Below, one piece after another: positions 16,787 through 51,764 of a stretch of 64,000 bases of DNA. The stretch is taken from assembly GCA_963402885.1 (NCBI GenBank), contig OY727096.1, forward strand, positions 17,341,820 through 17,405,819. Reading direction: 5' to 3'. The stretch comes from Antedon bifida. Taxonomy: Eukaryota; Echinodermata; Crinoidea; Comatulida; Antedonidae. The notes under the pieces were generated by a model, which saw only the letters and a list, made by a program, of their open reading frames with translations, was not told the origin of the DNA and ran no database searches. Each line of letters starts with the position of its first letter. Within the stretch, counting starts at the first letter, position 1. The position numbers were made by a program, and so were the translations under genes.

Positions 16787-17852
16787 ATCCTTCCGCTCAA
16801 CACAGGCGTAGCAGTGCGTACTGCGTAGGGCATATCTGATTGGTCGATTGCAGCAGCCATCTCCAGGAGAATCACTTTTTTAACTGCGATGACAGTTTCT
16901 TTGTGATCTAGCCTTCGGCTATATAAAATCATTGGATAATAATACAGTCTAAACTTTAGTTACTAAAACTAAGCTACGTACTAACTTAACTAGCCTACTC
17001 AACCTACTACTACGTACTAGGCCTAGCTAGGACGTACTACTGGCCTAGCCTATAATTATATATATAGGACGGTCTCTCTTTTTTACTATAACTGCCATCT
17101 ATCTTTCTACCCTCTTTCTTCCTACTTTTTGCGCCTATTGTTATTCTACAAAAAAATACCTCTCTTTCATTTGAATAATAATACTAGGCCTAGGGCCTAT
17201 TTGCCTCCTCTCTTTGGACAAATTATACGTAAAAATAATACTAACGTCCTGAAGAGGGCGGTAGAGTATGCGACGTGGTTTTTTTGACGATGTTGTTCCG
17301 AACGTGCACTTTATTAACCGGATAAGTTGCAAGCCTTTATACCGAAAGTCGCCATTTTAACGATAATTTTTTTCCAGTCAATACAACTCCAAAATCTTGA
17401 TAAATAATGTAGGTCTCCACATTATTATAACATTTGTTTTAACCGATATTATTAATTCTTATTCAACTTGAATGCAGTGTGTAAAAATTGTATTTTAGGC
17501 ATTCTATATACCTTAATAAACTTGAGTCAGTCAGGCTAAGCCTACTATAGCCTAGGCTAGCTAGAGTCTAGAGAGCACGCCCGGCGGGTGTGGGTGAGTT
17601 GGATGTGCATGTTGTATCTGGGCCTAGCCTCATAGTTATCCTAAACAAGAGAAGTTAGGCCATAGCTAGGCTAAATAAGTTAGGTAATAGAGGAATATGC
17701 TCTACAAAGCCTATCAATACAATAAAATACATTACTAATAAACTAGGCCTAATACTAACTAGGCTACGCCTAGGCCTAGCCTAATATAAATAAATAATTT
17801 CTTGAAATAAAAATGCATTATTATAATGATCCTGTAATTATTCTTTTTTCAG
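16787..17852 (+). promoter_or_regulatory. Upstream region of COX6B
   Basis: Contains the COX6B promoter and at least one non-coding 5' exon, because a splice acceptor (TTCTTTTTTCAG) ends at 17852, nine bases before the start codon. Candidate signals are a TATA-like CTATATAAAATC near 16919, ATTGG at 16840, and GCCATCTC (16857) and CGCCATTTTA (17351), the latter two resembling YY1 sites common in nuclear genes for mitochondrial proteins. The first exon could not be fixed. TAGGCCTAG-rich patches lie at 16970-17050 and 17530-17780. Confidence 0.35.
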
Positions 17853-17861
17853 ATATCCAAC

Positions 17862-18325
17862 ATGGCTGATGTAATGGATGCTATAAAGAACTACAAGACT
17901 GCACCCTTTGATGCACGATTTCCCAATCAGAATCAAACAAAGAATTGCTGGCAGAATTATGTAGATTTTCACAGGTGCCAAAAAATCAAAGGGGAGGATT
18001 ATGCACCATGTGAATGGTTTAAGAGAGTCTACCAATCTCTATGTCCTAATAGCTGGGTAAGCACACATCCTTTAAGTCTAAGGAATCATAGACCAATTAT
18101 CGCTAACTTTGATGGAAATAACATCCTAAGCACAGGCTTTAGTATGATGCTTGCCTTTACATTACTTACCATAGTTTACCATAATAAAACTCTTTGCCTG
18201 TTGAAGAAAAAAAGCATCAAGATCTAGAAATTTACATGCAAACCTTAAATGTATTTATTGTTCTATTTCAGGTGGAATCATGGGACGAACAAAGAGAAAA
18301 CGGAACATATCCAACAAAAATCTAA
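17862..18325 (+). CDS. COX6B: Cytochrome c oxidase subunit 6B
   Basis: A nuclear-encoded subunit of respiratory complex IV on the intermembrane-space side, linking the two monomers. Coding exons are 17862-18056 and 18272-18325 (249 nt, 82 aa plus TAA; vertebrate COX6B1 is 86 aa), joined in phase 0. The CHCH fold is clear: CX9C ([11 protein letters not shown]) followed by CX10C ([12 protein letters not shown]), the oxidised pairs used by the MIA40 import path. The start [20 protein letters not shown] and the end [14 protein letters not shown] match the family. An AATAAA at 18558-18563 with GT-rich text after it is the likely poly(A) signal. Confidence 0.97.
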
Positions 18326-20794: not shown

Positions 20795-23700
20795 CTAAGC
20801 AACAAATATCGGACGTCTTTCACCCTTTTCAAACCCTTGAACTTCTTTTTCTTTTCGGATAAGGTCATTTAGTTGGTCAACCATAAGGAGCAACTTTTGA
20901 CTCATGGCATCGCATTCAATCTGAATGGGATCCACTCCTAAAAAAGATAAGAGATAATTAAAGACATTAAGGGTAGCTTTGTGTTCAACATTTCTCCTGT
21001 TTATTATAAAATGTAAAGCTCTGTCTTTGCTATCAAACTTTATGTGACAACAAAATGTGATATGCCCATATATGGATATGATATATCATATCACTATCAT
21101 ATTTAAGCACATCACTACCATATTTGGACACATCACACTTTTTTGTTCAAACTATTTTGATAGTGTAGACAGAGCCTTTGTAACAACATTGATAAGAACC
21201 CCACTTATTTATTTATATTTTTTGTTTATATTTTATAATAATCAATAGCAAATTTAAAAATGGAGCTATCTTTCATATTATAAATCATTGGAAAATGTCA
21301 TGAATGGATATGAAGTCCGAAATATAAATAAATAAAAATTGCATTTTAGAAATTCATGATGGTTGTCACATACTGCAAATCACATACCTTCTATGTATGT
21401 ATGTTTTCTACGAGGCACTTTTTTAACCCTTTTTTCCGCAAAACCTGTCCAAATCTTAAATCGTTGTATCATAAACTCGACGATTTCAAGCGAGTTCTGT
21501 TGGCGACTTGTTTCAGCTCTGGTTCTTGCAAAAGCCTCATTGATGATCGTTAAGAACATGTTCATGAGAATGAAGACAATCATCAAGATAAAACTGAAGA
21601 AGAATATTGGTCCCAAGACCCTGCTTGTCTGTGTCATAGCCTCAAAGTCAAATTTCCCTTTAAATTAAAAACAAATATTACATTTATAATGTATTTGTTT
21701 ACATATTAAGACTTTCATTCCATTCAGTGATTGCATTTATTTTTCAAATCTGCCAATATAACCTCTCAGACTGTCTAATACAGTTTGCTAAACCCATTTA
21801 TATTGTATAATTAAGGCATTTGTTAACGATAAAGCAAAACTTTGGGACACCTATTCAATTCTATTCAAGAGACACTTTCCTGCGAAACAACGAGGGGCAC
21901 TATGGCAAAATCTTATTCAGGGACACTCCAATTAAACGAATTGGTTGAAAAACAAACAAAACAAAGCACGTACCTAATAATGTTGAGAACAGAGACTCAA
22001 CTGTCCCTATGATAGACCGGTAGGTTTGAACGCCAGTGAAGAAGATCATGTAGCCTACTGATGCATAAGATGCAAATATGATGACAAACATAACAAAAAA
22101 GTTGAGTAACTCTGTATAGCAGGAACCAATTGTATTGGCAAGCATCAGCATTTTACGGTTAAAGCGCAGTAATTTTAAAAACTTGATTGTAGAAATGAAC
22201 AGAATGAATCCCAGTATGTAGTAGTATATCTAGAAAATATAACATTTATTTTACTGTTTTGTTATTATTTCAGTCGATGTGTAATAATAATATTGTTTTA
22301 TTCACATATAATTTGTGGACATATTTATGGTCTGTTGTGGACATGAACGTGACCTTAACCACAATGTTAGAGAATATGTTAAAATTGCAGCCAGATACAT
22401 TTCAATTTAGGTACGTTCCTATATACAGTAGATTTAATGATGGCATTTAGCTCCATAACATTAGTTAAGATACAGTATGGACTGCAGTTGTCATACACAA
22501 CACCAACGATGTGCAGTAGTAGCGATAACAACTCCATTACCTAGTTTAGATGCAAAGGCATACACAATACCTTAATACGCAATACGAATGAACATACCCT
22601 TTCTCTAATAACCGAATAAGGTGCAGGTATGCTTGAGAACACAAGCTATCCTTACCTGATCCAACTGTCCAAAGAATTGAAAGTTCATGAATTCTCGGAT
22701 GTTCTCCTCTCGTTTTGCCAACAGACTCTCATTAATGAAATATCGGTAGACGAAAACAATAAAAGCCATCAACGATAATGACAAGACAATGAACTCCAAC
22801 AGGTTACTTGCATTTTTGAAGTAGTTAAACTTCTGTTTTCTGAATAACATGATTTCTCTGAAGAGGTACCAAAGAATAAACAAAGCAAAACAAACTTCAC
22901 ACAAGATCACCAAGAAACTGCCAGCGCTTGAGTAACGATCCAATAAAACAGGATGGAAATTGTAATGTGGTATAGCACCTATAAAAGAACATTATTTAAA
23001 GTCTCAGCAAATGAATTGCAATAAGTAATTTTTGTATGTCAAGCATAATTAATTTCTATAAAGTACTGTAAAGTATATAGAAAGGAATTGCAGAATTTAA
23101 ATGTGAAAAAACAGATCAGATGAAGCTGACACATCGACAATCAACTTGTCATTGGCTGTAAGGATCTGATGATGTCCATTTCTCAGGAAAGTGATGTACC
23201 AGCACAACGGGGGCCTCCTACTGTTCCGAAAGATGCATCAGGTTTTAAATTGAACTCAGCATTTAAAGTTTCTTTAAAGCTCTGTCTACACTATCAAACT
23301 AGTTTGACAAAATGACCAAAAAAAATGTGATATGCCCAAATATGGTAGTGATATACCCAAATATGGTAGTGATATAACATCATCATGTTCATATATGGGT
23401 ACATCACATTTGTTTTGTCACATAAAGTTTGACAGAGCAGCTTTAGAATTTATCAAGAAAATAAATCTGCTAGTATTACCTCCAGTCGGCAAGAACTCTG
23501 CAATCATATATGCAACGCCGTACAGATTTGTTGCAGGATTGAATATTGAAAACTCGTAAAACACTGCTCTTGTATGTTGATCTACCCATTTTGTAGATCG
23601 TAGATATTCTGCAATTTCCAAGGCATCATCAAGAGTGTAGCCAAGCTCAGCGACGTAGCCACCGCCGTTATACAGGGCATATGTACCCCAGTAAGGAAGT

Positions 23701-26700: not shown

Positions 26701-29700
26701 CATAGTACAAAAGAGAAGTGACAAACAGCATGTGGTTCTTTGACACCTGGTGAAGTTGCTTTTCGGAGGACGCATAAAAACCGAAACCCAAAGGTGACTA
26801 TCTGTAATGTTCCGCCTAGTCCGACTGTGAAATAAATGCCCAAAACTTGTTAGTTCACTCTGCCCTGCAGTCGGTACTATACGCTCAATCTGAAATATAG
26901 AAAGAAAATAAGAATTGTGTTCGATTACGCAATTGACTTGACAAATAAAGGTAAAAAGAATACAAGTAAGTAAACAGAAAAAAAAACTGTATATAAAGTA
27001 AATTCCTCAATGACAAGTATCATGTTTCCAGAAGTAGTATCTAAAAAAAAGTGGAACAAAAAAAGCATCCTCTAGCAGAGGTGTCCCCTGAATCGGGAAA
27101 GTGTCCTCTTAATAGGTGTTGGGGTTCTACTGTGATAGGAAGAAATAACACCTTTGTAAGTGTTTTTCATGAATGTTGACTGTACTAACCTGGCCATCAT
27201 CTTCCTCTAGGGCTAGCCATCGATCCAACATAAAGTAATACGTTCTATTGGTTTGAATGTCCTTAACAGACACACGGCTCAAGAACCATTGCGGACTATG
27301 ACCAGTATTATCATGCCAGATTCGAAGGTGCACCAGCGTACCTAACGTCTGCGGTACAGTCATCAGAAATGAATCAATCCCGCTTCGTTGAAGGATTGGT
27401 CGTTTCTTATCTTTGACAATACGGATGCCTGTTTCACCTTTCTCACCTTGAAGGATGAAGGAAACATTGGCAGTGGTAGAAGACTGTCTTCTCACCCCGG
27501 TGAATATTGTGATCTCGTACTTGTACGTATGTCTTGGGTCGTTATCAGACATTGGAGTAATGCCAGCCTGTAATAACAACAATGTTAACTCTGTCAAAAT
27601 ACTTGATCTAAGACAGCTAAAGTATAAGGCCCCAGAATAAAAAAAAATATGAAATCATCAAATGGTAAAATATCCCATGAAAGCTCATGACCCACATGAT
27701 ATTATTATACTAAAAGGTAAAATACATTATCAATTGTGTCTCATATCTTACCCTTGAGACATCTCGTTTATCTTCTTTGCGCGCCCAAATAATGATAACA
27801 ATATACGCACACAGACAGCAGGTCATGAAGGTGAAGACAACTGGATTTTCACTCAGTTTCGTAAATGCTGAGTTGCGTAAATTAATCGAGTTCATAGGTA
27901 CTGAAAACGATCCTCCCACGGTAACAAGGTTTTCTTCTTGTTCCGATTCTTGACCATAATCTTCAATGCTTCGTTTTGACCTTTGATGACCTTCACTTTC
28001 AGACGGTGCAAGATAGTAACAAAAACATTGAGTAGTGTCACGTGTTGAATCTTTGCCAACCTGTAAGTACAAAATTTAAAATAAGGGATCATTGCAAAGT
28101 TATTCTACTGCAGTTGCTGCAGTAACTACATTTTTATTGCAATAATGTATGATTTTAGTTTGATTTGACTGCAACAGTATGTAGAATAAAAAAATTAACA
28201 AATTATTAACTTTTTGTATGTTTCTTGGTTTCATCTGAGTTTCTTTCCATCGTCATCTTTCCATTAACATTTCACAAACATTTTTATAACTGTTGCATGA
28301 CTCTTGTAGCAAAATAACTTCTATAATATCATTGAAATAAAAACCAAACATATCCAAAATTTCTGAAAGATATCTAAAGCTCTGTCTACACATCAAACTT
28401 TGTGTGAAAAAATGTGATGTGCCCATATATGGACATGATGATGTCATATCACTACCATATTAGTTTGATCATGGAGCTATAAAATTAATTTTATAGCTCC
28501 ATGGTTTGATAGTGTAGACAGAGATTTAGTGTAACATACCTCACACTCTGTATAATGCCATTCTGTATCTGATGAGCTTCTGTAGTAACATTGAGAAGTA
28601 AACGACGAGATGTTATAGTACATTGGTATAAATTCTTCATTTTCTTCATCAGGAACGGTGTCATTTCCTTTGCTGCGTAACCGTTCATGTCGGACATTTA
28701 TGTATATATCCGAAGATGCGTTGGACAAAAAACTACAATTAAAATTTAAAAAATAACAGTTTAAATATAAAATTGACAATAGGGTTAGTTTCATTGTATT
28801 TATTCAATAATTTAAAAATAATGCATGAATGATTTCTTTTAATTATTCATTGAGATGCTATACCTGCTAGAGAGTGAACTTGTCGAACTGTCTAGCATTG
28901 GAGCTACATCTATAGTTATATAATCTCTTTTTTTAAATTTCATTATGCAACAATGTACAATTAAAAACATACAAATGAAACATAGAGCCTTTTCAGGCTT
29001 AGTTAATTTACCCACTAAGTTGGCTTCATGACCAAAGATTTCTGAGTTTAGTGTGTAGGCAACGTACCTTAGTAAATTATTAAGCCTTAAAGCCTGTTGC
29101 AGATTCAACGATTTTTTTTGTACACTTTTAAGGTCTGATATTTCAAATTAAATTATAATATAAAAGCTATTTAATTTAATTTAACAATCGGATTGATTTT
29201 ATTTAATACCACTATATTTCATTTTGATTTTATTTATTCAATAATTTAAACCAATAAAATTAATGCATGAACGATTTCCTTTAATTATTCATAGAGATGC
29301 TATAACTGCTAGAGATGGAACTTGTCAAACTGGCATTGGAGTTACCTCTATAGTTATATAATCTCTTTGGAAATTTTAATTTATTGAATGCAACAATGTA
29401 CAATTGAAAACAAACAGATAAAACATAGGGCCTTTTCAGGCTTAGTTAATGATCAATATATGTGGGTCAATTATTAAAGACACCTTCCCTACTTTTTTTA
29501 GATCTAATTTAAGATCACAAAATAGATTTAATGTAAAAATAATGCTATATGGTCCTATTGCGATAACTTTTTTCATCTTTAGATTCTAATAATTATAGCG
29601 GCCCGCTATAAATCCCAAAATGCATTGCACGCGGATTGATATTTTTGTTTTTCTTCTGTAATTCACCCACTTTTCGATCGATCGTGAGGCCAAAACAAAT

Positions 29701-32700
29701 GGAAGACTCTTAACTTTTCAGCGAAAATACCGGGTTTTCCCCAATTTGTATCAACGGAGTCTGGCAAAAATAGAAAGACAATTAATGCAGCAACTATACA
29801 ACGTTAGGCTAGGTATATAGCTAGCGTACGATGTTCGTACGTTACCGATGTTTACCAGCTAGGCCTACAAAACTAAGCCTAGCTAGGCTAGGCCTAAAGA
29901 CCGTCCACGAGAGGTCACTCACCGCGAGCTACTTAGGTAGTGCATTGTTTCTCACTTTTTATCATAATTTACCATAAAACTTACATTTAGGACAAGGAAT
30001 GACCTGGTTTAATGTTTTTAAAGTAATATACATGTATTATTTTTACAAAACGTCACAAATTGTAGGGAAGGTGTCTTTAAGCCTTAACATGCCCATTCAG
30101 TACCTGTTCATGACAGTGTTTGAAAAGAAACAGACTGTGTCTCCTTTGTGTTTCATCTCTGTCTCATTAAATTTGAATACATCAGAATCATTAAGAATTG
30201 CAGTCACACTTTGTATCAATGTACAGTTTAAGTCATGATTGTCTGTTACAAACAAAATAATAATTGTGTTAAAAATATACACTAGTACTACAAGTACTAT
30301 CCCAAAATTAATTTTAACTTAACTGGGTTACTCAATTGCCTCCTAAAATGCACGACCGATACATGTGCCAATTGAGCTGGGACAACTTTTAATTTCTAAT
30401 TAGTCATTCGGTTATGTTAGAAAGGCAATTTTTGGTTAAAAAAATGTTTTTTAGACAAATTTTAACAAACGTAATAGACCACAAGGTCACAAATGACGAC
30501 AAATTCCACACAACATACTCTTTCTGCACACATTTTAAATTTTAACTCTAAAATTTAAATCTAGTTTTATCTGCTAAGATTATAACATGTTTGAAACAAA
30601 GCAAGTGATTGGTACCCGGGGTAAGAGAAAAGGGATGGGAAACATTTTACCTTGAGTGGGTGAGGCATTGATTTTAATAAAAACTACAATTGTATAAGTA
30701 TATGAATACTCAGGTTTCATATCTTCCTCCCCTCTGCTTATCACAGTGATAGAGACAGCCGTGTGTTTTGCTGTATCTGAAATTTATACAACAAACAATT
30801 AAACATTCAGTGTAAATAAATAAGAAAAAACATATTTTATGACCATTTAACTGTATATTTAATACTTCTCAATTTAACTGGGAATTAAGGTTAGATTAAA
30901 TAGTAACATGAAGCGACTTATTAGAAAAGTAGCACACAAACTTATAGTGTAATGTCGAATATACATGTATTTTGCTTTGCTTTTTTACTTTGTAAAATTA
31001 TTTACAGGTTATAAATAAAGTCTCTCAATACTGTTGCTAGCCAGGTGTCCTTTGTTTTTTTTAAATTAGTTTCTTTCAAGGCTTTCAAGATCACACGTCT
31101 GAAAGGAATATGAGGACGATGTCTTGCGTGAGAGACGTTTGTACGGCCCGCTACAGCGCCTGGACTATTCCATTTTCCTTTCGAGAGGTGTCCATATTGG
31201 GAAAATGGCATATGTAGAGTCTATACATGTAGGGATCTCACGAAAAAGACAGTATACCCTAGAATGTATGTCTAGTTTTCCAAAAAAATGTTATACCAAA
31301 TGTCAAAAAGAATTTGAACCTCAAGGGATAGTTTCCATTTTTCAGATTTTGATAGTGGATAGTCAACTGTATACTATAAAAAAAGGAGTATACTGGAAGT
31401 AAGTACACCAATGGGTAAAAGAGCCATAGATACTTGTTAGAGAGACACGCCCTTTGGCAATAGTTATCTTTGACAGATCCTCTCTCTTCTCTCTCCTTTT
31501 TATGTTTCATTGAAAGGAATAAATAAAATAATATAGAGCAAATGCTACATACCTCTCAACATTAAATCATCTGGCGTGAAACTACTTGATACAGTTTCAA
31601 AAAATTGATAGTTTGAGGCATTCTCACTTGTCGCTGCAAACTGCTCTTCTCCCCTATAAATATTAAACTCCATTGGCTTAGTCATGGATGTGGCATAAAC
31701 TGGTTGTCCTGTATCATTTTTCATGTTGATTGAAACCACTGATCCTCGGAGGCTGGTGCTATTTCCTTGGCTAAAAGGATCATTACTTTGAACTATAATC
31801 TATGTAATAATAACAAAAGTTACATTCATATTAGTCTACTATAGATTCTAGACTGCATTTCAACTTAACACTGGTAAAAACATAAACATTTTGGCACACA
31901 TCGTGTTTCATATGTATAATACTTGATCTTGTAGTTTCAGACAAACATTGAAAGTCTATATTTGTAGTACAATCATTTTATTTACAATCATCCACAACAC
32001 TGTGTAACAAGCCCATAGCCACAGCCAGACGCACATGCCCCAAAATTGCATAGTCTAGTTATGACGATTTTGCCCCTTCTGTAGGAAAAAAACCCTCTAT
32101 AATATTTCTGTCTAACCATCACTTCCACCACTCTGCTGAAATAGGAGTTTCATTTCATTTATTTTGTCAATTAAAAACACGGTAATACAATACTAATAAG
32201 CATAACAAAAGATGATCACACAAACATGTGATATAAAGCTCTGTCTACACTACCAAGCTAGTTTGACAAAAAAGTGTGATGTGCCCAAATATGATAGTGA
32301 TATGCTCAAATATGGTAGTAATATGACATCATCATGTCCATATATGGGCACATTTGATGTAGACAGGGCTTTATAATCTGTACAGAAGGTAAAAGGCAAC
32401 ATACCCTGGTCTCTAATTCTGTTGTACTGTCATTTCCGCTTCCGATAATTTCTTCTACTTCAGGGAATTTTGTGACTTGATTGTCATTCTGATCCGTAAA
32501 ATCATAATTTACTAATTATTGAAAAATACATAAAAATGTTATTAATTATCAATACATATAAATGCATTAGGCTTTGCAAATAAATAAGAAATAAACATAT
32601 TTAAGTAAATTCATAAACAAATTATTTACTTACCATTTTCATCTCGAGTAAAAGATTTGGCAACAGTGACTGCCATCACGTCTGTGTCGATTTTAACATT

Positions 32701-33043
32701 TTTTTGTCCAGTTACCATTACGCCTATCATGGTATCAATAATAGACGTTACAACCTCAATTCCAGCTGTTGCCGACTAAAATAAAACAGAATAGGTACAT
32801 TAACATCTCTCTTGCAGGTGGCACCAACATCCAGACAGAAGAATAATGAAGCCACTCTTCATGAGAGAAATTTAATTGGGAATGGTACCATGCTGGTGAT
32901 GCAAGAGTTGTGGACACAACATGTTATGTCTTATGGTCAGTACCGCGTCATTTGCAAATTGGTTTTGACACCTAGAGACTAATATTATGAAATGAGTTTG
33001 GTATACTTGCCACAATTTCACTTTCTGCATTAGTCGGTACTCC

Positions 33044-33076
<33 letters not shown>

Positions 33077-39000: not shown

Positions 39001-42000
39001 CGTATAACTTCAAGTCATAAATTTCATATTCAACTGAGAGGAGAATATAATCCTTGGCTGAACTTAACACATTGCTTCGTATCATAGTAACATTTAATAA
39101 ATCTAACTCATTAAACATTTCAGTCGCCATAGTGAGGGAATAAACAACGGTTTCTTCAACTTGATAATATGTCTCTGTGATATGTGTATAATTGACTCCA
39201 TCTATAAACAATTCAATACTAGAATTGACACCTGAAAATACTTCTGTTGCAATAAGAATCTTACGGCTGCCCCATGTAATAGGATTTTGGTTCATAATTC
39301 TAAACCCAGTAATACGCTCATCGAACTGTATATTTGTTGAGATGTTGGATTCGCTGACAACATTCTCTGACTGTATTGTAAGCGGAAGGTTAGCTGAATG
39401 GGCACAATCGAAACTAACAAAGTTGATGCCTAAACAAAAAAATAAATCAAACGTTTTTATTTCTAAACTGTACGTATGAAGTGCCCAAATTGTTGGCACA
39501 GAAGTTTAACTACTCTATATTCAACTCAGCGACTAAAAATAGAGCAGTCAATCTTTCAACTCATGACATATTATGACCACTTATAAACATTAATTATTTT
39601 GTATATTATTCTTATAAATCCAAAGGCAAATTACTGAAAAAAATGAAAATGCTGTGGGTATCAGTGGCTGGATCTCAATGGAGATACAAAAAAAAAGCGA
39701 AAAGCTAAATCAAAATGATAAGTAAAACAGCCAGAAAAGTTAGCAGAGCTTTCGGGCAACACTAGCCCTTCATCAGTGCAAGTGAAGGAATTTGGATAAC
39801 GTCATAGTATAAGAGCTGGCAAGTGCTGCTTGGGTGGACAGGAATAAAAGAAATACAACAAAAGGAGACAGGGTGGAGTCTGAATAAGAGTAGAAAACAA
39901 AGGTAGCTTGGTAGAGATATAAACAATTTTGGAATGAAACTAAAAAACAGCTTAAATGGTGGTTAATATTGAAACTTAAATTTTGGTAGTCAATAATTTT
40001 ACCGATCTGGGAGTATGTTCCTAATGTTAAGTCCAAAAGCTTTTGTGGTTTTAAGTTGTAATTCCCAGTGGTTTTCTTTTTCTTTGCGAGTTTTGTTGCT
40101 CCATTTGACTCCGTGGTCTATTGCAATAACTCTGAAATTTGCAATCGAGTGACCAGCTGAATTAAAATGTTCGGCTACAGGTTGATCAAGCTTTAATGTT
40201 TTGATAGCTGATCTGTGTTGTGTCATTCTCATACGGAGAGTGTTTTTTATTTCTCCGTTTGCCACAAATATTACAGTATTTGGTTAGACAATTAATTAAT
40301 TGATTGTCTTATCCGAAAAATGCGGCCAGTTTGGTTACTCTTAAATTTTTCAGTAGAATCAACCAATGAACATGTTTTGCAAGATTTGCCACAAAGGTGA
40401 CTGCCCAAATTTTGGCTGTCATGAGAGTTAATTTCACTCTTAAATTTGGATCTGACTAATATATCACGAAGGTTGGGAGGTCTACGAAATGCAATAATGG
40501 GTGGTTCCGGAAAAACAGTCTTGAGACGTTCTGTGGACTGTAGAATACAGGTAGCCCGTAAGAGGCAACCTTGGCGATAGGTTGTGACCAATGGCACTCT
40601 GGTCGAATTTTTTGGCTGACGTGGTTTGTACGTCAGTGTTTGAGATCGAGGAATATCGTTTGCTTTCTTTATAGCAGTTTCGATGTATTCTTTCTTGTAA
40701 TTTCTATTCCAGAGATGTCCGGTTGGTTCTTCGGTACAATTCTGAAAATCTGAATCTGAAGAACAGATACGTCCGATACGTAATGCATGACTGTACGGTA
40801 TGTTTTTAGTACAGTGTCAGGGATGACAACTGCTAGGGAGCAGGTACATATTTTTAACCGTGGGTTTACTGAGTAGGTCAGTTTTGGGTGTACCATTTTC
40901 TATGGTCACTATAGTGTCCAAAAAGTCAACGCTACTAGTGGATTTGGTAGCTGTAAATTTGATAGTTGGGTGGGCTGAATTAATATTGAGTAGAAAAGAT
41001 TCCAAATTATTTTGACCATGGGTCCAGATCATGAAGATGTCGTCAATGTATCTAAACCAAACAAGTGGTTTATTACGTTGGAGGGACAGAAAATTGGCCT
41101 CAAATTGTCCCATAAATAAATTTGCAGAAGATGGCGCCATTTTTGTGCCCATCGCTGTGCCATGAATGTGAAGGTAATTGTCATTTCCAAAAATAAAATT
41201 GTTGTTGGTTAAAATCAACATGACCAGTTCTCTTAAATGAGCTTTAGTAGGCGTTTTGCCTGGAATTTGTTTGTAATCTAAAATACATGCGTCGGCTCCT
41301 TCTTCGTGAGGGATATTAATATACAATGATGAAACATGTAAATTTAAATAATTTTTATATATATATATTTGTATAACAAACGTGTACCTTTGCAACCAAG
41401 TAATCCAATTTTCAAGAGCACAGCACCTTCAAAGTCCATAAAATTTATTTTGACATACTTGGCTATGAATGTGTCATCAAACATTTGGTACATAAAGCCA
41501 TCATGTGTGTTATGATATGTAAATTTCTGAAAAATACAACAACTTGTTTAAATGAATATATAATGGCAGTCTTACGACAAAAAGCTAGGTGGTAACCCTT
41601 GAAGTGTTCAGTGTAAAATTCAGTATTTTTCTTACTTATACTTTTGTGAGCCTTTTCATCTGGAAGCATTTTTTGCCTTAAATATTCTGTCTAAATAATT
41701 ATACTCTTAAAATATGGCTAGTGGAAAGCAAGAGGGTAGAACTGTTATACCATGGAGGAAATATCCTCCATGGTTATACCCAGCTTAGATCTACAATGTC
41801 AACTCATCGAGCAGTTTAACTATTTCAATCATGGTTATAGTAACTAGGCTATGCCATGTTCTTTGACTAATTTTCTCCCATCAACTCAAAAACATTCATT
41901 AGTAAGTTTACCTTGATTTCCCCTTTTTCATAAAGGAATTTCCAAGAAATTTTGTCTACACTGTGTTGTACACAAAACTGTCGTTGATCACTTGAATCCA

Positions 42001-45000
42001 TGTTACTCAATAAAATGCCTGATAGTTCCTGTCTCCCAGGCAGTACGATTATCACCCATGGTTCATAGCGGTTTTCTATTGAAATCCAATTTTTACCACT
42101 TGAAAATTCTGTTCTTGTAGTGTCAATTTCGATCATTTCATGACATGTCTGTGGCCCTGTAGTTGACACAGAAAATGATATGTAATACATTTTTAATCCT
42201 CCACAATTACAAAACAACCAAACAACTCACAAGTAAAAAAATAACATAAATCTATAAATAAACCAACAAAAAAATTCATTAAACCTGACAACTAACTAAT
42301 TAACCAAACCAATTAAATTAACAAACTTATCAATCTAGTCTCCATAACATACAATCATACTTACTCTTGCAGCCTATTAGCTTAAAAGTTTGTGGTCCAT
42401 TGAAAACAGGCGAAGCACCGTCATATGTGTAAACCAGCCGCAAAAAACGACAGATTACTGGGTAACGAAAACTGTTCAAAACTTTCTCATTAAAAACCTA
42501 AGGGCAAAAATAATACCGAGTTTATAGTGGTATCGATGAGAAACATTACCAAACAAACACGCCCCTTTTTATCTGAAAAGGTTGTGTGTGCAAAAAATGA
42601 CAGTATCAGGCAGTCCACCTAGCAACCTAATAAAATTACATTATTCGCCACAACCCGATACCAGGATTTTGTGTGAACGATCACAATTATATATTGCTGT
42701 GTGAGAGCAGATGGTTGCAGTTATCAAGTAAATAAAATAAACATGGTCTTTTTTTTGTCCCTTAAGCTGTATTCACATTGGATTAGGTCCGACGCCTTGA
42801 GGAAAATATCACAAGCGTTGAGCGCGCTTTCACATCGAGCATGAATTCTGTTATTCGTTCGTGAGGTCATTCATGCTCACTGTTAATTGGTTTCAGAATT
42901 TGGTTTGAACGATCTTGCACCCATTTTCAACAATATTTTTCTCAGGGCACTGGACCGATTCCATGCGTGATGTGAAAGTAGCTTTAATCATATAATTTGA
43001 CGATATACTACCAGTAGCCTCCACCATATAACATCTGAAAAAAATCAACAAGAACAAACCTCAATATCCCCATTATTGTCCTGAACAGGCTTGAAAGTGT
43101 TGTTATCCATTGAGTATTCCACATGGAATATGTTCCTGTCACTTTCTTCCATTTTCTGTATTCCTGTGACTGTGTAATGCTTCAGTAGGTCTACCATGAC
43201 ATACCTCTTCTCACCCTCATTAGAGGCTGTGAACTGACCTGATGGTATCATGCCACCTGATGCACCAATGTCTTGACGACACAGTCTTGACCCTATAAGT
43301 TTAAAATTGTTTCAAATAAATAAATAAAAAAAGGTAAAAACAAGTCAACAACAACAGAAAAATGTATTTTATAAGAAGAGACAAAGTTTATAGTGTATGT
43401 AAACAAATAAAAAAGATATACCTTTACAACCAAGAAGTTCAAACCGCAAGCAGAGTGTATTAGGATTCAAGAATTCCACGCGAATAAACCGTGTATGTAC
43501 CTCTTTATCAAACACAATCCATTTTTCAGAAGCGTCATTAGCAGTCACATTAAGCCATGCCTATAATTACAATAATATAACACTAGAAAAGGAAGAGTTC
43601 ATTCAAACCGTCCATAACAATGTATTTAAATATAGGTTTAAACAGATATACAGTACAATAAAACTGCAGTCACTATGTACTTACAGTATCAGAGCCAGCA
43701 ATATAAACATCCTTCCACAGCATTTTGTTTTCACTGTAAGACACTTTAAACAATGAAGAAACCCCTCTACTAGTCTCAACCTCAAAGATGAAGCCAGTGA
43801 ATATGTGAAGGTGTTCATATTCAATGTTGATCGGGTTGGCGTCATTCATGGAAAAACACATCCCGGATCCACTATGACCAATACGGACTAAATCAACGTT
43901 GAAGTTTGGTATGTCAGACGTCACTTGGCTATTAGTCACATCTCCATTTCTTAATCCCATTTCGTCAAGACATACATTGTTCGCTGGATAAAAAAAAAGA
44001 TAAATTTTACACAGATCTAACGAGAGACAAGTATTTTGCAAAAAATTGCATCTTGTGCACGCTTACCAAAATGGAAATTCTAAGTTTACCCACCAGCATT
44101 CTAATTTTGTATAACTTTGTATATAACATTAAATAGGTAGATCCAAATTTTTATTTCTATGCCAAAAGAGAGGATATTAGGTTAAGATCAGTTCATTTAG
44201 CCCCTGCTTCATCCAATGGATGTCAGGAAGCAGGAAATATTGTACAATTAACTATTTGAAATCTCCGCTTCCTAGAGTAATATGATGATTACATAGTGCC
44301 TTGTGCATGTGTACATACACTATTCATACTAATACTTACACCCACAACCCAGAAGATCAAACCTCAAAGCAGGCGTTCTTATTTGAGGTACAATATTTAC
44401 ACGAACATGAATAGCATAAACTGGCTCATTGAAAAAGTTTGTCACTATAGTGCCTTCATCAAAATTTCCAGTCAAATTCTGCCAACAAGAAGAGATAAAA
44501 CATTTCAAAATGTTATATTCATTGAATTCATTGAAAGACAAAAGAGGTGTACCATATGCACTTAATATGATTATGATCTGGAGTAAGATTTAACTTGCTT
44601 ACCAAAATGAAGCCAATGATTTTGCTTAAGTCAGTTTTGAAAATAACTTAAGCAAACTTTTTACATATATATTCTTACAATTAAAGATGACAAAGTTTAT
44701 TTTATAAAGATAAACAGAACTGGTTTGATCAGAGAAGAGTGAAATTTAACTCTAATTCCCTGGTTTGATAATAAAGCCTCAGCTTTTCACAAATCTTAAC
44801 TATCTTGACTTAAAGCAAACAATTGATAAATGCCAGCTCAAGTTAAACACAATCATACCGTAAAACAAGGATATATGTATGTCTACCTTTGTTGTGTTAT
44901 TTTCCATATCTACATTGATCCAAACATTTCCACTTTGGCTGTAGGTTACAAAGAAACTTTCAATCCAAGACTCAGCATTGGAACTACCTTGCGTGGCAAT

Positions 45001-48000
45001 ACCAGTAATAATATACATTCTCAGCAAATTTATCTAACGACAAATAAATAAAATTTAAATGAAATTAAATGAATAACAAAATAATGTACTGTTTTCTGAG
45101 ATAAAGAGGTCTATAAAAACAGAAAATTATTTGTACTTTTTAAAACTATATAAAATGAATTTTCAAAAGAAAAAATTTCATATATATTTAAAACATTACA
45201 ATACAGTACCTGAATCCATTCATTATCTCCATTTTCTGGAGACCACACGCCCTCTATGTTGTTCAGTCGTGCAAGGTGAGGAAACGAATTCAACACTGAT
45301 GTAGATGCCACAAACTGTGAGTCTGCAAACTTGTCCTCAAATTCTAGTCCCAACATATTCCGACAATTATCTAAATAGCAAAATTAAATATGTATCATAT
45401 TACATTACAGTATATAATACGTTTTGTATTTCATCTTGCATCTACGTTTGTTGTATTCATCTTCTAATTTATTATGTATGTGTATAAAGCCTGGTTTCCA
45501 TAAAATCGCTAGCAACTGGAATTATGGCTGGTAAACAAGGAAATAGGGAGCTTTCAAACTGCAAAAATCAATAAGCTACGCACAAGTTAACGTCAATTCA
45601 ATGTGCGCATGCAGGGAAGTTGGAGCGTTGGTACCAGACGAAGATGATTGACGACGCATCAATGAGTAAGTCATTGGTTGGCAGTTTTCGCAAATCAAAC
45701 TACTTCCTTATATTACAGCTTCCTTACCTTTGTTTGATACCTGTATATTTTGTAACATAACTCCATCAACGTTTAACAAGTCTTTATACAAAGTTAAACC
45801 TGGTTCAACAACTAACGTTATTGGCTCATTTTCTCCAATCGTTACATTTGTAGTAATATCTGAGCCTGAAATATAATTTGTAGTTATCAGTGGAAAATCC
45901 GGAATCTACAAAATACAGGAATGTGGAGAATTTAATTAGGTTTATACAAGTCCAATAACAGGGTAGAATTATATATATATGTATGTATATTTTTACGGTA
46001 AAATAATTGTTAAAGTCACCTGTAGAGAACCATTGGACCCGCGCAGCATGGTTGATATCCACAACATATTTTTCATCTTCAACAATGTTCCAATACGAAG
46101 GATTTTCTTCAACAAAACTTAAGTTAGCTATTTTATGTACAATTTTTACCAAAGTCTACAAATAACATTTTAAATATTAGTTAATACCGTATGAGACATA
46201 TGTACTAATATCTGAGATATTATCGAAAAAATAATGCCTCTCAAAAACCTATGCAGAATACTATAATAAAATATGTTTTAAAACAATCTTTTGTAGGCTA
46301 TATCTGCAGCCCTAGATTGATACCACCTAAGGTACTTGGCCTCTATCATGTTCAGACTCTAAAAAAGAAACTTACATATTCTGTCCACTGACTGTCTCTA
46401 TTATAAGCACGTAGGCTGACATTGTAAGATCCACTGTAGTGCCACAAATACATTAATTTGGTTGACGTGCTCTGCATTATATCACCATTAGCAAAATTCC
46501 ATTCATAATTACAACCAAGCATACCTGGATGATCCTCTATTGTGAAGTTTACAAAATCCCCAAATGACACTGAAAGGCATGAAAATATCATATTCTAAAA
46601 TTATCATGAAGAATATACAAGATGCTTATAATTCCCAATAACTGTATGTAGGCTTGATTGTCAGCATATGCTGTTTAGGGTCACCCTCACTAAATAAGGT
46701 TTAATAATAAATAAAATAAAATACAGTAGAACATCTATCAGTACACACAAAAGTCTCCTCTTAATAGGGGTTTTCCCTGAATAGAGGTTAAAACATATAT
46801 TCCTCCTCGTTCGTTTTACGGGAATGTGTCACCTTATTACATAAACTTACCAGTACTTAGACTGACATCATAAATATAAGGGTCGATGATGCGTACAACG
46901 GATACATCCTCGTTCAACCCTGCTACTGACAACTGAAACGAACAGGAGCTATTATGATTGCATGTATGTGATATAAGCGTTTGTCGTTGCCTAGCTACAA
47001 CAGCTCTGAATATATGATTCGTCTTGTTACTTGGATAAAAACTTCTCCCTTCAACAATATTTGATTCTGTATCTGTATTTATAAATTCTGTCGATGTTAA
47101 TGACATCTCTTCACCTAACTGTCCATCATTTACATAATTATAACTTATGAAATCTCCTTTTTCAACTTTGGTGTCGTTGACTTGCAGGTATGCTCGGCCG
47201 GTTGAAGACTGCTCAAAGATGAATGTTTTTACAGCCTCAAGTTTGACATCTGGTGGTGATGTAAAAATGATGTTTGCGGTAGAGTTTGTGCACAGACCAG
47301 TTCTGAAGTTGAATGGCGAAGACTCTGAACAAGTTTTCTTCCAGATGCTCGGCTGATCGTCGCACGAGGCGTCAATTGAAACATATGAATATGATGATAC
47401 ACAAAACTTATAGAAATCAGTAACGTAGGGCCTTAGAATCTGTGTGAAGAAATCATTATAAGCTGTGATCAGATAGTATTGTTAGATTTTTTTCAGGGCA
47501 CAATAGAAAAATAGTATCACCACAAACTAGATACGATACCATGTAATTGGCTAAATGCTTAGCTGTTGGTTTGGTTTGAAATGAACATAAGTGCATAGGA
47601 AATTAGGGTGAACACATAATTGTAGAGCTCTTGTTATCTGAAAAAAAAATTCTTTCTGAAATAGATCCTCTTGTGACCAGACAGATTAGGCTCTACTAGG
47701 CCTCTTTTGTTCTCACCGATGGCCATCGACATATTTGTTTGCCCAATATTTTAAATATATCTCCTGATACATAGCATGCATATTTACCTCTAATTTTATA
47801 GTTCCAGTTTTCTGGATGTACACTTCAAAACCCATCAGTTTACCATCAACTTTAATCGGGTCATTAAGTTTAATGTAACGTGCAGTTTGTGTGTAACTTT
47901 GACTGTCAGTTGTTAACAAGCTGTTGCTACCAAACATAACAATATCTTTACCTGATAAGGAAACAAAAATAGATTATCATAAAGAAATAGTGATTAGTAA

Positions 48001-51000
48001 AATGTTTTTTTAATCTTATGATATTCCGCGCAGAAAATTAACTTTTAAATATCAGTAACCAAATTCCAGATAAATTAGTACAAGTTTCAAGTTCGTTATT
48101 ACATATCGTCTTCAAAGTTATATTACAAGATATTTACATAAAAATGATTAAAATCGATGATAAAAGTACAATAAGTTTAAACCAGTTATTATAAATACAA
48201 TTGAAAGAGTTCCTCTCCTTCCAAAGATATATTTTTAATGATATTTTGGGTGAGTTCCCACGGTTTTCACATTTCCTTCATGTAACAAGAAAAATATCAT
48301 TAAAAATGTACAATTACATCAGAGTAGGGAAACATATCTGACCAATTAACTTAGCCAAAATACTTCGTAGTAGTCAAATTATCATCAATAATAGACTTAC
48401 TAGTATAAATATCTGTTGTTATCCCATCTGAAAATGCAACATTGATAAGTTTTTGACTGCCTATTATGTAGGAAAACATACAGTTGTAATGATCGATGAA
48501 TGAATTACAGGTTAGATTGTATTCTTGTAAATCATACACAACCGTTGTGGTATCAGTAGTCTTCAAAGTTTTACCAAGTTCATCGGTCACTTCAAATCCA
48601 ATTGACCGTTGCCCAGGTAACCTATAATGAAGTAGATTTTTTATTTGTTTTATTCATTAATAATCCATCTACCTTTATTAAAGAAATACAATAATATAAA
48701 CATTTCCATTCATTTTTTGGTATACTAGCACATTATTTTGTTAACAAATTATTTATTTTTTATAAAAAATGTTTGTTTTGCAAAAAAATGAAATAGTATT
48801 ATTGTTACAAACATCTTACAGAAACACATGCTTCACAGATCTCATTGTTCCTTTGTGTGTTTGTTTGTCTCCGAAATCATAACTGTAACTGGTAATTTTA
48901 GCTGAATTAGTAGGGTAGACAGATATGTTATACCATGCATTTCCCTGGATTCCATCTTTTATACCGTCAGCTAAAAATAAAAATGTATTCATAAAATATT
49001 TATGATCAATTATTAGATGTAGGTTATCTGGGTACGTATTGTTCATTGTCATAAATTTCTTTTCTAGTTTTATACTATGCCTCTAAATATTAATTAAATT
49101 TAATATGCGTCCGCTGTCAATTTTTGACTGTAAAAGAGACAGTGACTCAATAAAACCTTTGAATTGATCCTATGCCTGTACGCTGGGGGGAGGAGGAGGA
49201 GGAAGAGGAGGAGAAGGAGGAGGAGGAGTAAAAGGGGGGGAGGGGGGGGGGGCGGGAAGAGGTAATGTTACATTGGGTTAAACAATGTATGTAAAAAATG
49301 GTATGTTATTGTTAACTTAAAATAGGTTTTTTTTCACAAATTTAAACAGTTGAAGACTGTTTATAAAGAAGGAAGAGAAATTTCACTCTTTGTAAAATAG
49401 AAGATTTGTAAATAAGCATATGTATCTTTACCTGTAGGTCTATTATCGTCATCTTTATACCACATTGTGTTAAAAGCAGTCAGAACATCGTCATTATTGA
49501 ACACTACATTATGGATTTTCGTTCGACATTCATTGTGCAACATTGCAGGACATTCAGTGCAAGAATGCATTTCAACATAATTGTTGGTAATTGAGTCGTT
49601 GGCACATAAACACATTTCTGCACGAAATGCCGTAAATCTGTAATGTGAATCAGTATGACATTATTTATAAAATAAATATCAAATATCTACTGGCCCATAT
49701 TAACCAAAATTATGCACTGAAAAATGAATACAAAATACCAGAAGTTGTGATTTCCAACACGACTGATATCACATGGCTCATTATTTACATTACATTCCTG
49801 GTACAAACACCTAGAACCTTCCAGCAGGCCCCTGCCTGTACCTATTTACTAGGCCTAGTAAAGTAAGTACTGTACTACATTCCAATTCCTCTAGGTAGGC
49901 TTACTACTACCCACAAGGCCTAAATTTATACTCCAACTAGGCTAAAGCCTAACTAACCTAATAATTGGCTTACATGTAAAGTTTTTGTTATGTGTAAACT
50001 CAAGTATGCTTACACAGTTTAACTGAACAACATTTTGTTAAAACTATTTTTTAATCAATTTATGGTTGAACATCTTCACATCATCGCATGTCAACATGGT
50101 ATTTAAATCAAACCTTATATACTTTTGACCAATAACAACCCCTCTGCTGGGGTGTACTGGACTGTTGTGTTATATTAAACAGAGGGTCAATAAGAGGTAG
50201 AAAGGTGAATAATAAAATATATTAGGTTTTTTTAATGAATAATTATTTTTATTTTAACTTTAATTAAAACTACAAAATGGCATTCAAAGTTTGATTTTAT
50301 TCACCTATTTTTTTGTTTTAAGGGATGATACATCTCCAGCGGTGCATAAAATTTATATAGAGTACAAACATTGTATGTACTTACGCATATTTATTTTCGG
50401 CACAGACTTGACGGCAGTCTATAAAATCATCTGTTGGTGCACCATACGATCCAGGATTTATGTTAATTTCGCGCCCAATAATATTGTCCACGTGACATCC
50501 GAGAGAGGCTGTTGAAATATGAAAAAGTACATATTATATTATTATGACAAGTTTTAAAATAAAATATACGTTAACACAGTACATAAAATTAAACTTTAAA
50601 GAAAGAGCGGCCTGTGTATAAGCATTATTTTCATTGCACTGGTTAAACCATTTTAAAGATCTCATGAAATATTGAAATTTAGAAGACAAGAAAATGAAAA
50701 GAAATGATAAAAACAATCCCTCACGTACAGTAGGCCAGTTTAGAGGTTTAGTATGATGCTGTTATGTCAAATAGTAGTAAGGAAGTTTACTTACATATTG
50801 TCTGAATGTGAACAACCAGAGCATATGACCGATTTGCACTATTTGATAAAACCCATTCGGACCTATAACCGAGATCTTGTGTGTCGTCATCAGTTGCAGA
50901 GTACCAAACAGAGCTACCACCCTCTTTATACACAATACCATTGGTAACAGAAGAGAAACCAATAAGATTGCCATAAGCAATTGCCAGATTATCTTCTGAA

Positions 51001-51764
51001 TTCAAGCTCACGTGACGTGTCACTCCATTTCCAAAAGTATCAACTGTCAATTTCCCAGTAATGGTGAACTTTCCGGCGATGTCTGGTACTCTTTGTAAGA
51101 CAAAGAACTGGATCGTTCCATTATTTTTGGCAGAGATGAACTCCCAGCTTGTTATTTTCCCGAAACATTTGGATGGAATACCTTCAAGTACGACTATTTC
51201 TCCAACATCTCTTGTTAATATATCAGTATCATTCGACCAGCCAACTGTGTAAGGCTCTTCGCATACTGCGTCTGAAACACAAATAAACATATAAAAGATA
51301 AAAAGTATTTAATTTGCCAAAAAAAAAAACAAAGAAAATGGCAAACATGATTGCAAACTGACATGATCTGTTTTTATGATTTTGTTCGTTTAGTTTTTTA
51401 AAAAAAAAACCTTTAAATAAGGTTTAGACCTAATATGTCTAAGTTATAAAACCTTCTTGCAACCCCTCACCATTTATCGAGGGATGTTTATTGAAAAATA
51501 AATCTAAATTGAACTAATGTGTATACTTACCATCATAAATGGCCGAAGAGACACAACTAAGCATACACAAAATCTTTGGGAAAATAAAAAAAGTATACAG
51601 TAATTATTGTAGGTAAAAAATAGTATAGCAAGTTTTAAAAAAAAATGTCATATTGTTCCATATTAGTTTTGTCTTTTAACAAATTGTCAATAACTACAAT
51701 AATATCAATAATATATATATAAATAATAGATAACTCTTACCTGAAGTAAATTTAATAACCTCAT
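20795..51764 (-). CDS. Polycystin-1-family receptor-channel with WSC, PKD, four F5/8C, REJ, GPS, PLAT (gene A), complete
   Basis: A large surface receptor with a channel-like membrane core. The 48 coding exons in order are 51741-51764, 51531-51573, 50795-51271, 50385-50508, 49432-49637, 48820-48970, 48401-48621, 47788-47951, 46851-47439, 46376-46569, 46020-46155, 45728-45865, 45210-45370, 44887-45033, 44340-44478, 43685-43983, 43422-43560, 43060-43292, 42365-42497, 41912-42156, 41388-41526, 36391-39429, 35853-36015, 35482-35580, 35039-35220, 34752-34943, 34444-34574, 34023-34182, 33570-33736, 33349-33457, 33007-33042, 32634-32765, 32405-32511, 31553-31799, 30651-30776, 28864-28903, 28540-28732, 27752-28060, 27190-27567, 26107-26889, 25641-25876, 25103-25458, 24211-24333, 23480-23764, 22656-22978, 21974-22229, 21388-21657 and 20795-20937. 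Their sum is 12,687 nt, an exact multiple of three (4,228 aa; human PKD1 is about 4,300). The signal peptide is MRLLNLLQILCMLSCVSSA. The WSC domain is about residues 182-291, PKD 667-731, F5/8C 823-1367, PKD-like repeats 1368-2140, REJ about 2140-2750, GAIN/GPS to about 3090, PLAT 3179-3304, and there are 11 membrane segments. Least certain are exons 31, 33 and 36 and the GC donor of exon 43. The natural ligand is unknown. Confidence 0.92.
21016..21177. mobile_element. Palindromic TA-flanked MITE, copy 3 of 7
   Basis: Starts AAGCTCTGTCTTTGCTATCA and ends TTGATAGTGTAGACAGAGCC. The interior has repeated CATATATGGA/ATCACTACCATATTT words. It lies in the last intron of gene A. Confidence 0.85.
21388..22229 (-). 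other. Gene A exons 46-47: S4-S6 and pore
   Basis: Exon 21974-22229 encodes S4 (YYYILGFILFISTIKFLKLL) and S5, then TVESLFSTLL. Exon 21388-21657 continues GKFDFEAM, then RVLGPIFFF, S6 with ILMNMFLTIINEAF, and the post-S6 helix. RVLGPI and LxNMFLxIIN are close to PKD2, so this paralogue keeps a recognisable channel core. At the filter, PKD2's L-G-D reads L-G-K here, with a phase-1 intron exactly between G codon bases 1 and 2. Confidence 0.85.
23277..23443. mobile_element. Palindromic TA-flanked MITE, copy 4 of 7
   Basis: Begins AAGCTCTGTCTACACTATCA. The right end is internally deleted (AAGTTTGACAGAGCAGCTT) and is followed by TA. It sits 36 bp downstream (minus strand) of the gene A exon ending at 23480. 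Confidence 0.85.
27752..28732 (-). other. Gene A exons 37-38: GPS remnant and first membrane segment
   Basis: Exon 28540-28732 ends with YYRSSSDTEWHYTECE. Exon 27752-28060 begins VGKDSTRDTTQCFCYYLAP. Together these give the Cys/Trp skeleton of a GPCR proteolysis site, but the usual H-L-T/S cleavage triplet is replaced by Y-L-A. An RSKRSIEDYGQESEQEE linker follows, then TM1 (VVFTFMTCCLCAYIVIII) and WARKEDKRD. If the GAIN fold forms, self-cleavage at the normal site is unlikely. Confidence 0.8.
28377..28526. mobile_element. Palindromic TA-flanked MITE, copy 5 of 7, with a nested palindrome
   Basis: Ends AAGCTCTGTCTACACATCAA and TTTGATAGTGTAGACAGAGA, with TA flanks. It contains a perfect 34-bp palindrome at 28470-28503. 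It begins only 13 bp after the donor of gene A exon 37. Confidence 0.9.
28796..29007. repeat. Local duplication, copy 1 (contains gene A exon 36)
   Basis: Copy 1 of a ~215-bp local duplication. It contains the 40-nt exon 28864-28903. Copy 2 is at 29230-29450 in the same orientation; shared words include CAACAATGTACAATT and CCTTTTCAGGCTTAGTTAAT. Confidence 0.85.
29230..29450 (-). pseudogene. Decayed duplicate of gene A exon 36
   Basis: The duplicated segment carries an exon-36 relic at about 29306-29341. It is four bases shorter. The acceptor AG has become AA and the donor GT has become TT, so it should not be spliced in. It lies within the same intron as the live copy, upstream in transcript order. 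Confidence 0.7.
29474..30080. mobile_element. piggyBac-type MITE, 607 bp, perfect TIRs
   Basis: Ends are TTAAAGACACCTTCCCTAC and GTAGGGAAGGTGTCTTTAA, exact reverse complements including the TTAA target duplication. There is no transposase. The interior contains AGATCTAATTTAAGATCACA, a GTACGATGTTCGTAC palindrome and TAGGCCTAG-rich text. It lies in a gene A intron. A shorter relative is at 14622-14821. Confidence 0.9.
32236..32371. mobile_element. Palindromic TA-flanked MITE, copy 6 of 7
   Basis: Begins AAGCTCTGTCTACACTACCA, ends GATGTAGACAGGGCTT, flanked by TA. The inner words match the other copies. It lies in the gene A intron between exons 33 and 34. Confidence 0.88.
33046..33075. repeat. 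(ATA)n microsatellite at a splice acceptor
   Basis: About ten TAA repeats run to within three bases of the AG before the 36-nt exon 33007-33042. On the coding strand they form a (TTA)n tract in place of a normal polypyrimidine tract. Confidence 0.85.
36391..39429 (-). other. Gene A exon 22: 3,039-nt exon of PKD-like repeats and the REJ start
   Basis: Encodes residues about 1368-2380 without an intron, while every other exon is below 800 nt. Two canonical PKD domains show YTIDFGDDEKV (about residue 1740) and YTWDFGDSTAV (about 1968), each with a Y/F-GxYxVxVxAxN end. Diverged Ig/PKD-like units lie around them (FTIDFDDGSALC, CYRIDFISELSE). The REJ module starts near residue 2140 (CYLPIVNVSG, LTLYEWKGF). 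Many N-x-S/T sites fit a glycosylated ectodomain. Confidence 0.85.
39597..41345 (-). mobile_element. Penelope-like retroelement, 5'-truncated, with hammerhead-like motif
   Basis: On the minus strand, reverse transcriptase motifs run from about 41340 to 40800: SLYINIPHEEG, GTAMGTKMAPSSANLFMGQF and the catalytic YIDDIFMIW, then SVDFLD. A Cys-rich linker (LCGKSCKTCSL) and a GIY-YIG-type endonuclease region follow to about 40010. The copy is interrupted in several places and lacks the 5' part of the RT domain, so it is dead. At 39750-39776 its 3' end has a hammerhead-like core. It inserted in the gene A intron between exons 21 and 22, in the same orientation as the gene. Confidence 0.88.
41388..45370 (-). 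other. Gene A exons 13-21: four tandem F5/8 type C (discoidin) domains
   Basis: Domain 1 (exons 45210-45370, 44887-45033, 44340-44478) is canonical: C-RNMLGLEF, ARLNNIEGVWSPENGDNEWIQ, GIATQGSS, FFVTYSQSGNVW, GNFD and RFDLLGCG. Domain 2 is 43685-43983 plus 43422-43560, domain 3 is 43060-43292 plus 42365-42497, and domain 4 is 41912-42156 plus 41388-41526. Each ends in a (L/I)GC motif (LLGCK, LIGCK), and domains 2-4 are more diverged. Such domains usually bind carbohydrate or phospholipid. All four modules start and end in phase 1, the pattern expected from exon duplication. Confidence 0.88.
49185..49262. repeat. Polypurine G-rich tract, possible G-quadruplex
   Basis: 78 bases with only two pyrimidines, made of GGA/GAG repeats and then two long G runs (seven or more G each). 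It lies in an intron of gene A; on the coding strand it is a polypyrimidine tract. It can plausibly form a triplex or G-quadruplex. Confidence 0.9.

Follow-up and report, generated by a model that had tools for sequence, protein, structure and literature searches.

The ectodomains of polycystin-1 proteins are regarded as sensors of ligands or of force, and to our knowledge few natural polycystin-1 ligands are established. The F5/8 type C (F5/8C, or discoidin) domains of coagulation factor V/VIII, neuropilins and lactadherin occur in secreted or single-pass proteins. Human PKD1 has LRR and LDLa parts. It also carries a C-type lectin and a WSC domain (PMC1934368, in the portion of the text available, as throughout for this source). 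The human and sea-urchin SpREJ sets together use C-type lectin, EGF, SUEL, PKD, WSC, REJ, GPS and PLAT domains: WSC is present in SpREJ6, 7 and 10, PKD repeats in SpREJ2-7 and 10, and 11 transmembrane (TM) segments in SpREJ3-6, while a GPS is said to be present in all SpREJ proteins except SpREJ10 (PMC1934368). The available text of that paper does not name a discoidin or F5/8C domain for SpREJ proteins. A coral skeletal protein with a REJ domain combines WSC, PKD, REJ, GPS and PLAT in a multi-pass architecture (PMC4890752, available portion).

We analyzed a 64,000-nt window of the crinoid Antedon bifida (contig 9, 17341820-17405819), whose own assembly of 315.6 Mb in 27 contigs was the genome searched. 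The gene under study, P1, occupies 51764-20795 on the minus strand; P2, P3 and P4 are its three neighbouring paralogues. P1 resembles human polycystin-1 and the PKD1L proteins in its WSC-like, PKD and REJ domains, a GPS position before the first TM segment, PLAT after it, a polycystin domain and a channel core, and it resembles SpREJ1-10 as a member of an REJ-defined echinoderm family (PMC1934368). It differs from human PKD1 by four F5/8C domains, by a lost GPS triad and by an S6 segment like that of PKD2, not PC1. The coral protein differs as well, since in the available text no F5/8C is named for it and its GPS cleavage site is described as highly conserved (PMC4890752). With factor V/VIII C domains, neuropilins and lactadherin P1 shares the F5/8C domain by sequence, with the four copies here sitting on a polycystin. 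Our main reading, to which we assign a probability of about 0.7, is that P1 is a polycystin-1/REJ receptor carrying an F5/8C block between its WSC-like/PKD and PKD-REJ parts, that the block predates the local gene expansion, and that the receptor works as proposed below.

None of the papers listed by our literature searches describes a discoidin polycystin; the searches covered few subscription texts and the string 'F5/8' is unsearchable in them, making this weak evidence of novelty. The available portions of PMC5318412, PMC12716839, PMC3605852 and PMC10855541 likewise contain none. As far as can be read from sequence, the architecture is real and the F5/8C-bearing P1-P4 are a new variant within the polycystin-1 family. 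The parts of P1 and the adjoining portion of P2 are as follows.

51741..51764 (-): exon 1, start codon and opening residues of the signal peptide (MRLLNLLQ)
51531..51573 (-): exon 2, remaining signal peptide (ILCMLSCVSSA...); hydrophobic segment 3-21
50795..51271 (-): exon 3, N-terminal domain unnamed in Pfam; P4 has a 28% match
49432..50508 (-): exons 4-5, WSC-like domain; PF01822 E 0.0014, 19.2 bits, below the cut-off of 27.8
48401..48970 (-): exons 6-7, first PKD domain; the N-terminal 822 aa of P1 score 41.5 bits with PF00801 in 2 stretches, the best at residues 302-367
46851..47951 (-): exons 8-9, in our reading another copy of the exon-3-type domain; paralogues match residues ~469-675
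45728..46569 (-): exons 10-12, in our reading a PKD-like stretch and linker ahead of the discoidin domains
44340..45370 (-): exons 13-15, F5/8C domain 1; PF00754 70.0 bits, E 2.7e-19
43422..43983 (-): exons 16-17, F5/8C domain 2; PF00754 25.6 bits, E 1.5e-5, under the cut-off of 28.2
42365..43292 (-): exons 18-19, F5/8C domain 3; PF00754 36.6 bits, E 5.7e-9
41388..42156 (-): exons 20-21, F5/8C domain 4; PF00754 28.8 bits, E 1.5e-6
39430..41387 (-): intron 21, 1,958 nt, with reverse-transcriptase element fragments in the same orientation
36391..39429 (-): exon 22, 3,039 nt, PKD domains and first part of REJ; PF00801 93.4 bits, PF02010 65.2 bits
34444..36015 (-): exons 23-27, rest of REJ; PF02010 129.4 bits without exon 24
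27752..34182 (-): exons 28-38, expected GAIN region, degenerate GPS, furin-like RSKR, first TM segment
28060-27752 (P1) and 61921-61616 (P2): GPS triad loss and furin-like motif, from the exon alignment
27190..27567 (-): exon 39, PLAT; PF01477 59.9 bits
20795..26889 (-): exons 40-48, remaining TM segments, Polycystin_dom, PKD_channel and C-terminus; PF20519 144.2 bits, PF08016 167.2 bits
53038..64000 (-): C-terminal part of P2, continuing past the window end; gene model, PLAT match

Gene model and domain content

The exons of P1 were drawn from an open-frame listing and a simple exon-chain predictor, with junctions placed by eye and then corrected against the paralogue models. The final model has 48 exons and 12,792 nt including the stop, and encodes 4,263 aa with a single terminal stop and no internal one. 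The start codon lies in exon 51764-51741 and the stop codon ends at 20795; the introns comprise 45 GT-AG and 2 GC-AG pairs, giving 47 AG acceptors. Comparison with the paralogues added a 99-nt REJ exon (exon 24, 35580-35482), extended the exon at 30242 and removed a false exon at 29134-29068. Another false exon had been predicted automatically inside the reverse-transcriptase element, and the automatic chains also split or missed exons. The least certain parts are exon 31 (33042-33011) and exon 43 (24333-24211), both with GC donors, and exons 35-37. An earlier curated model, also of 48 exons but 4,217 aa, supplied the pieces used as Pfam and PDB queries; the 1,836-aa piece searched against Pfam lacks exon 35580-35482 and contains the false exon 29134-29068.

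An earlier, sequence-only reading of the locus had given the same coordinates, strand and order of parts, all borne out by our exon-by-exon remodelling. Its count of 48 exons equals ours and its protein length of 4,228 aa comes very near to ours, the 35-aa gap being a matter of exon choice. It had also taken the exact multiple of three and the matching phases of the exons as an argument for one gene. That argument is weak: exons get chosen to fit, so we do not count phase fit as evidence, and the paralogues take its place. In our model, P1 is one very large intact gene encoding a receptor of the polycystin-1/REJ family.

PKD, REJ, PLAT, Polycystin_dom and PKD_channel all score above their Pfam cut-offs in P1. 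REJ membership follows from PF02010 matches in two halves, both well clear of the cut-off of 25, and PLAT lies downstream of the first TM segment (residues 3184-3202). All four discoidin domains proposed earlier match PF00754, three of them above the cut-off, and the predicted match to exons 13-15 is the strongest of the set. The domain chain of the sequence-only reading thus holds for PKD, F5/8C, REJ, PLAT and the channel core, but its WSC and GPS assignments fall below cut-off. For WSC, P1 scores 14.9 bits within a long piece and reaches its higher, still insufficient score only when the domain is searched alone, and we therefore call the domain WSC-like. Among P1, P2 and P4, the three tested at the corresponding place, P4 passes the PF01822 cut-off (35.9 bits) and P2 does not (18.4 bits). 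A hydropathy scan of P1 reveals 10 distinct segments above threshold, besides the signal peptide and one segment in the GAIN region; from family likeness, we infer an eleventh TM segment near residue 3601.

Searched against the PDB, the F5/8C block matches 64 distinct sequences, and the best 60 of these 64 are mostly coagulation factor V/VIII, neuropilin and lactadherin, with the best stretches falling in domain 1 (query residues 2-174). A profile built from the 16 F5/8C copies of the four genes matches the same families. The channel part matches PKD2L1 and PKD2 (E 1.6e-79 to 3.1e-75), PKD1L3 (1.6e-43) and PKD1 (~3e-28).

No Pfam family scores above cut-off for the N-terminal domain of exon 3. 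This domain (50796-51269; a conserved W and a G-x-x-IG motif) is common to P1, P4 and genes on contig 10, and its weak relatives in the genome lie mostly on that contig; genes with exon-3-type domains are found at contig 10, 4475501-4481500, with an F5/8C-like frame nearby. Pfam matches to CoV_S1_C (E 0.033, exon 3), C1_1, Big_3, DNAJC11_beta-barrel and Protocadherin stay under their cut-offs and were dismissed as chance.

Paralogues and the discoidin block

The genome search for REJ yielded 27 matches; four genes at 17.37-17.70 Mb of contig 9 account for nine of these. P2 is the upstream tandem paralogue of P1 and continues outside the window. With a query joining the four F5/8C domains to the start of exon 22, F5/8C sequence is found just before the exon-22 counterpart in P2 (17.4199/17.4170 Mb), and the same adjacency recurs in P4 (17.6858/17.6891 Mb); 58 of 150 first-look candidates were scored. 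F5/8C-like matches also appear at many other places in the genome among the candidates scored. P3 is a fourth gene of the same layout, identified through tblastn, open frames and gene models.

In all four genes, four F5/8C domains directly precede the large PKD/REJ exon. In the models, this exon starts at phase 1 in every gene, and each of the 16 F5/8C modules also enters at phase 1. The arrays contain 3+2+2+2 exons in P1, P2 and P4 and 2+2+2+2 in P3, counted after six model exons were dropped by hand; the models of P2-P4 are computed and include some small exons that are false. Each of the 16 copies matches PF00754 with an E value of at most 0.01. A search of 7,116 ORFs with their joint profile (E up to 1) picks out 34, every one of them within the four slots that precede the PKD/REJ exon; as the profile was built from the same copies, the result demonstrates exclusivity of place and says nothing on membership. 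The ORFs cover 314 kb, made up of clusters A and B plus 30 kb at each of two other REJ loci. Within their 30 kb, those two loci contain no F5/8C match to the profile; WSC, PKD and REJ stretches can be read in them by eye, and one has an LRR-like start.

Mean identity between F5/8C domains at the same position in different paralogues is 26.1% (n=24), against 22.7% (n=72) for different positions, so that the sequences weakly support a position-by-position shared descent of the array. Several P4 copies lack the terminal cysteines. Identity among the four genes is 57-78% in PLAT, 43-63% in exon 44 and 50-65% in exon 47, and by this measure divergence is far greater in the F5/8C part than in these three regions. 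Judged from sequence, the shared design of P1-P4 marks a real receptor family and not a misread fusion, and the F5/8C block was most likely gained before the local expansion to four genes on one contig of this echinoderm genome. This suggests that polycystin-1 genes swap their outer binding domains blockwise. The array provides a bounded, expressible binding module of ~550 residues in a four-gene echinoderm family, with testable ligand classes.

A further feature of the modelled N-terminal part of P2 is the presence of three EGF domains (Pfam, three joined model exons) together with a weak WSC match.

GPS region, channel core and proposed working

The GPS of P1 scores 12.9 bits against a Pfam cut-off of 22.5 and lacks the H-L-T triad of a cleavable GPS. 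P2 also falls below the cut-off (16.7 bits), P3 exceeds it (33.4 bits), and P4 yields no Pfam GPS match although it keeps H-L-T-S-F; a weak Pfam score alone therefore does not show whether a GPS is live or dead. In the exon alignment, P1 has N-L-V and P2 has D-V-A at the triad position, with the four cysteines kept in both. P3 and P4 retain H-L-T-S-F, but their second GPS cysteine is replaced by Met. P1 and P2 also share 28 extra alignment columns containing RSKR and RRRR, respectively, motifs that begin 12 and 15 residues past the last GPS cysteine. RX[KR]R motifs occur elsewhere too in all four proteins. From its sequence, the P1 GPS looks non-cleavable. The loss of the triad together with the polybasic motif implies that any cut at this place in P1 and P2 would be made by a convertase and not by self-cleavage, and furin might recognize both sites, to judge from the motif alone. 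A degenerate GPS is no bar to membership of the PKD1/REJ family, since the family is defined by the REJ domain and not by the GPS (PMC1934368). Two sister genes without the triad, beside two with it, amount to a natural experiment on the role of GPS cleavage.

On the main reading, the four F5/8C domains would act as a multivalent surface for the binding of sulphated glycans or membrane lipids. This ligand class is a guess, because F5/8C domains bind proteins as well. The earlier reading had suggested egg-coat, cell-contact or immune-like recognition, roles that are conjectural. The PKD/REJ stalk would hand load to the GAIN region and onward to PLAT and the six-helix polycystin channel core, which may admit cations jointly with a PKD2-type partner. 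P1 and P2 would be cut at the polybasic motif, if at all, by a convertase.

Whether the core conducts is where the strongest alternative arises. P1 may chiefly be a receptor for adhesion or recognition whose signalling involves no conducting pore, its channel part serving for assembly with a PKD2 partner, a reading we place somewhat short of even odds. The pore-loop position of P1 holds Lys (LLGK) where PKD2 and PKD2L1 have Asp (ILGD), and exon 47 starts with GK in P1, P2 and P3 and with GN in P4; a Lys at this position speaks against an ordinary calcium pore. PKD_channel also has matches on contigs 11 and 15, for which no REJ match was listed, and these could be PKD2-type partners. Against a non-conducting receptor stands the S6 segment of P1, which is hydrophobic, PKD2-like and free of basic residues. 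In human PC1, R4100, R4107 and H4111 block the pore pathway (PMC12183636, available portion). With no basic residue in S6, unlike human polycystin-1, the P1 subunit could line the pore.

A second alternative concerns the ligand. According to a review, the starfish sperm head has a receptor for the egg-jelly glycoprotein ARIS, and ARIS binding gates calcium channels; the receptor gene is not named in the available portion of the source (PMC3528131). P1 would be a candidate for this receptor, with its F5/8C domains in the possible role of the C-type lectin domains of SpREJ1 and SpREJ3. We consider this unlikely, although the echinoderm origin of the genome makes the egg-jelly idea more concrete, and the sperm-head location and calcium gating of the ARIS receptor agree with it (PMC3528131), as does a bindin match in the genome. 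The bindin match is the only one found with Pfam (E 2.4e-28; contig 9, 24090279-24090476) and lies ~6.4-6.7 Mb from the polycystin cluster. A bolder version, which we hold to be a long shot, would see in the four discoidin polycystins the missing receptor-channel of sperm (or epithelia) for the sulphated glycans of egg jelly. In it, F5/8C domains would have replaced the C-type lectins of the sea-urchin REJ proteins, and one gene pair would have given up GPS self-cleavage in favour of cutting by a convertase at the same position.

Intron 21 and neighbouring features

The discoidin domains and the PKD/REJ exon of P1 are separated by a long intron. Its element fragments span 39640-41330 (-) and match RVT_1 at E 2.9e-4 and 21.1 bits, below the cut-off of 29.6; with 150 of 376 candidates scored, the reverse-transcriptase fragment shows at least 164 genomic matches, and we take the element to be Penelope-like. 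The corresponding intron, which follows the last F5/8C exon and precedes the PKD/REJ exon, measures only 181 nt in P2, 446 nt in P3 and 529 nt in P4 (models). The earlier claim of one gene and not a fusion of neighbours is upheld by the order of Pfam domains in P1 and by the same order in the three paralogues; four copies with one order make an accidental fusion very unlikely. Two neighbours, a secreted WSC-like/PKD/discoidin protein ending before 39.4 kb and a separate polycystin beginning with exon 22, would suit the element between exons 21 and 22 and the unspliced frame of exon 21, which stops 14 codons on, but this arrangement is highly improbable given the strong acceptor that opens exon 22, the open frame above exon 22 without an ATG, and the adjacency repeated across the short introns of all three paralogue models.

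Several other features are apparent in the window and the genome. Frames at 411-9687 (-) resemble eEF2 kinase; two pieces of them returned no Pfam match. An MFS_2 transporter gene lies at 11724-14395 (-), with a Pfam score of 60.1 bits for 13391-14395, and we assume it to be TMEM180-like. A frame on the opposite strand, 12450-12878 (+), resembles what we take to be the end of a LINE retrotransposon polyprotein. The window also contains a tRNA-Leu gene at 10643-10724 (+) and a match to COX6B (cytochrome c oxidase subunit VIb; 73.1 bits) at 17838-18227 (+). Mollusc haemocyanin and GFP families gave no match in the genome, a result that does not prove them absent. In the mitochondrial sequence, the frame that we take to be ND1 is located on the strand opposite COX1, an arrangement of the asteroid type, and has AAA at sites that are Asn in conserved ND1 motifs, which points to the echinoderm code (common to flatworms).
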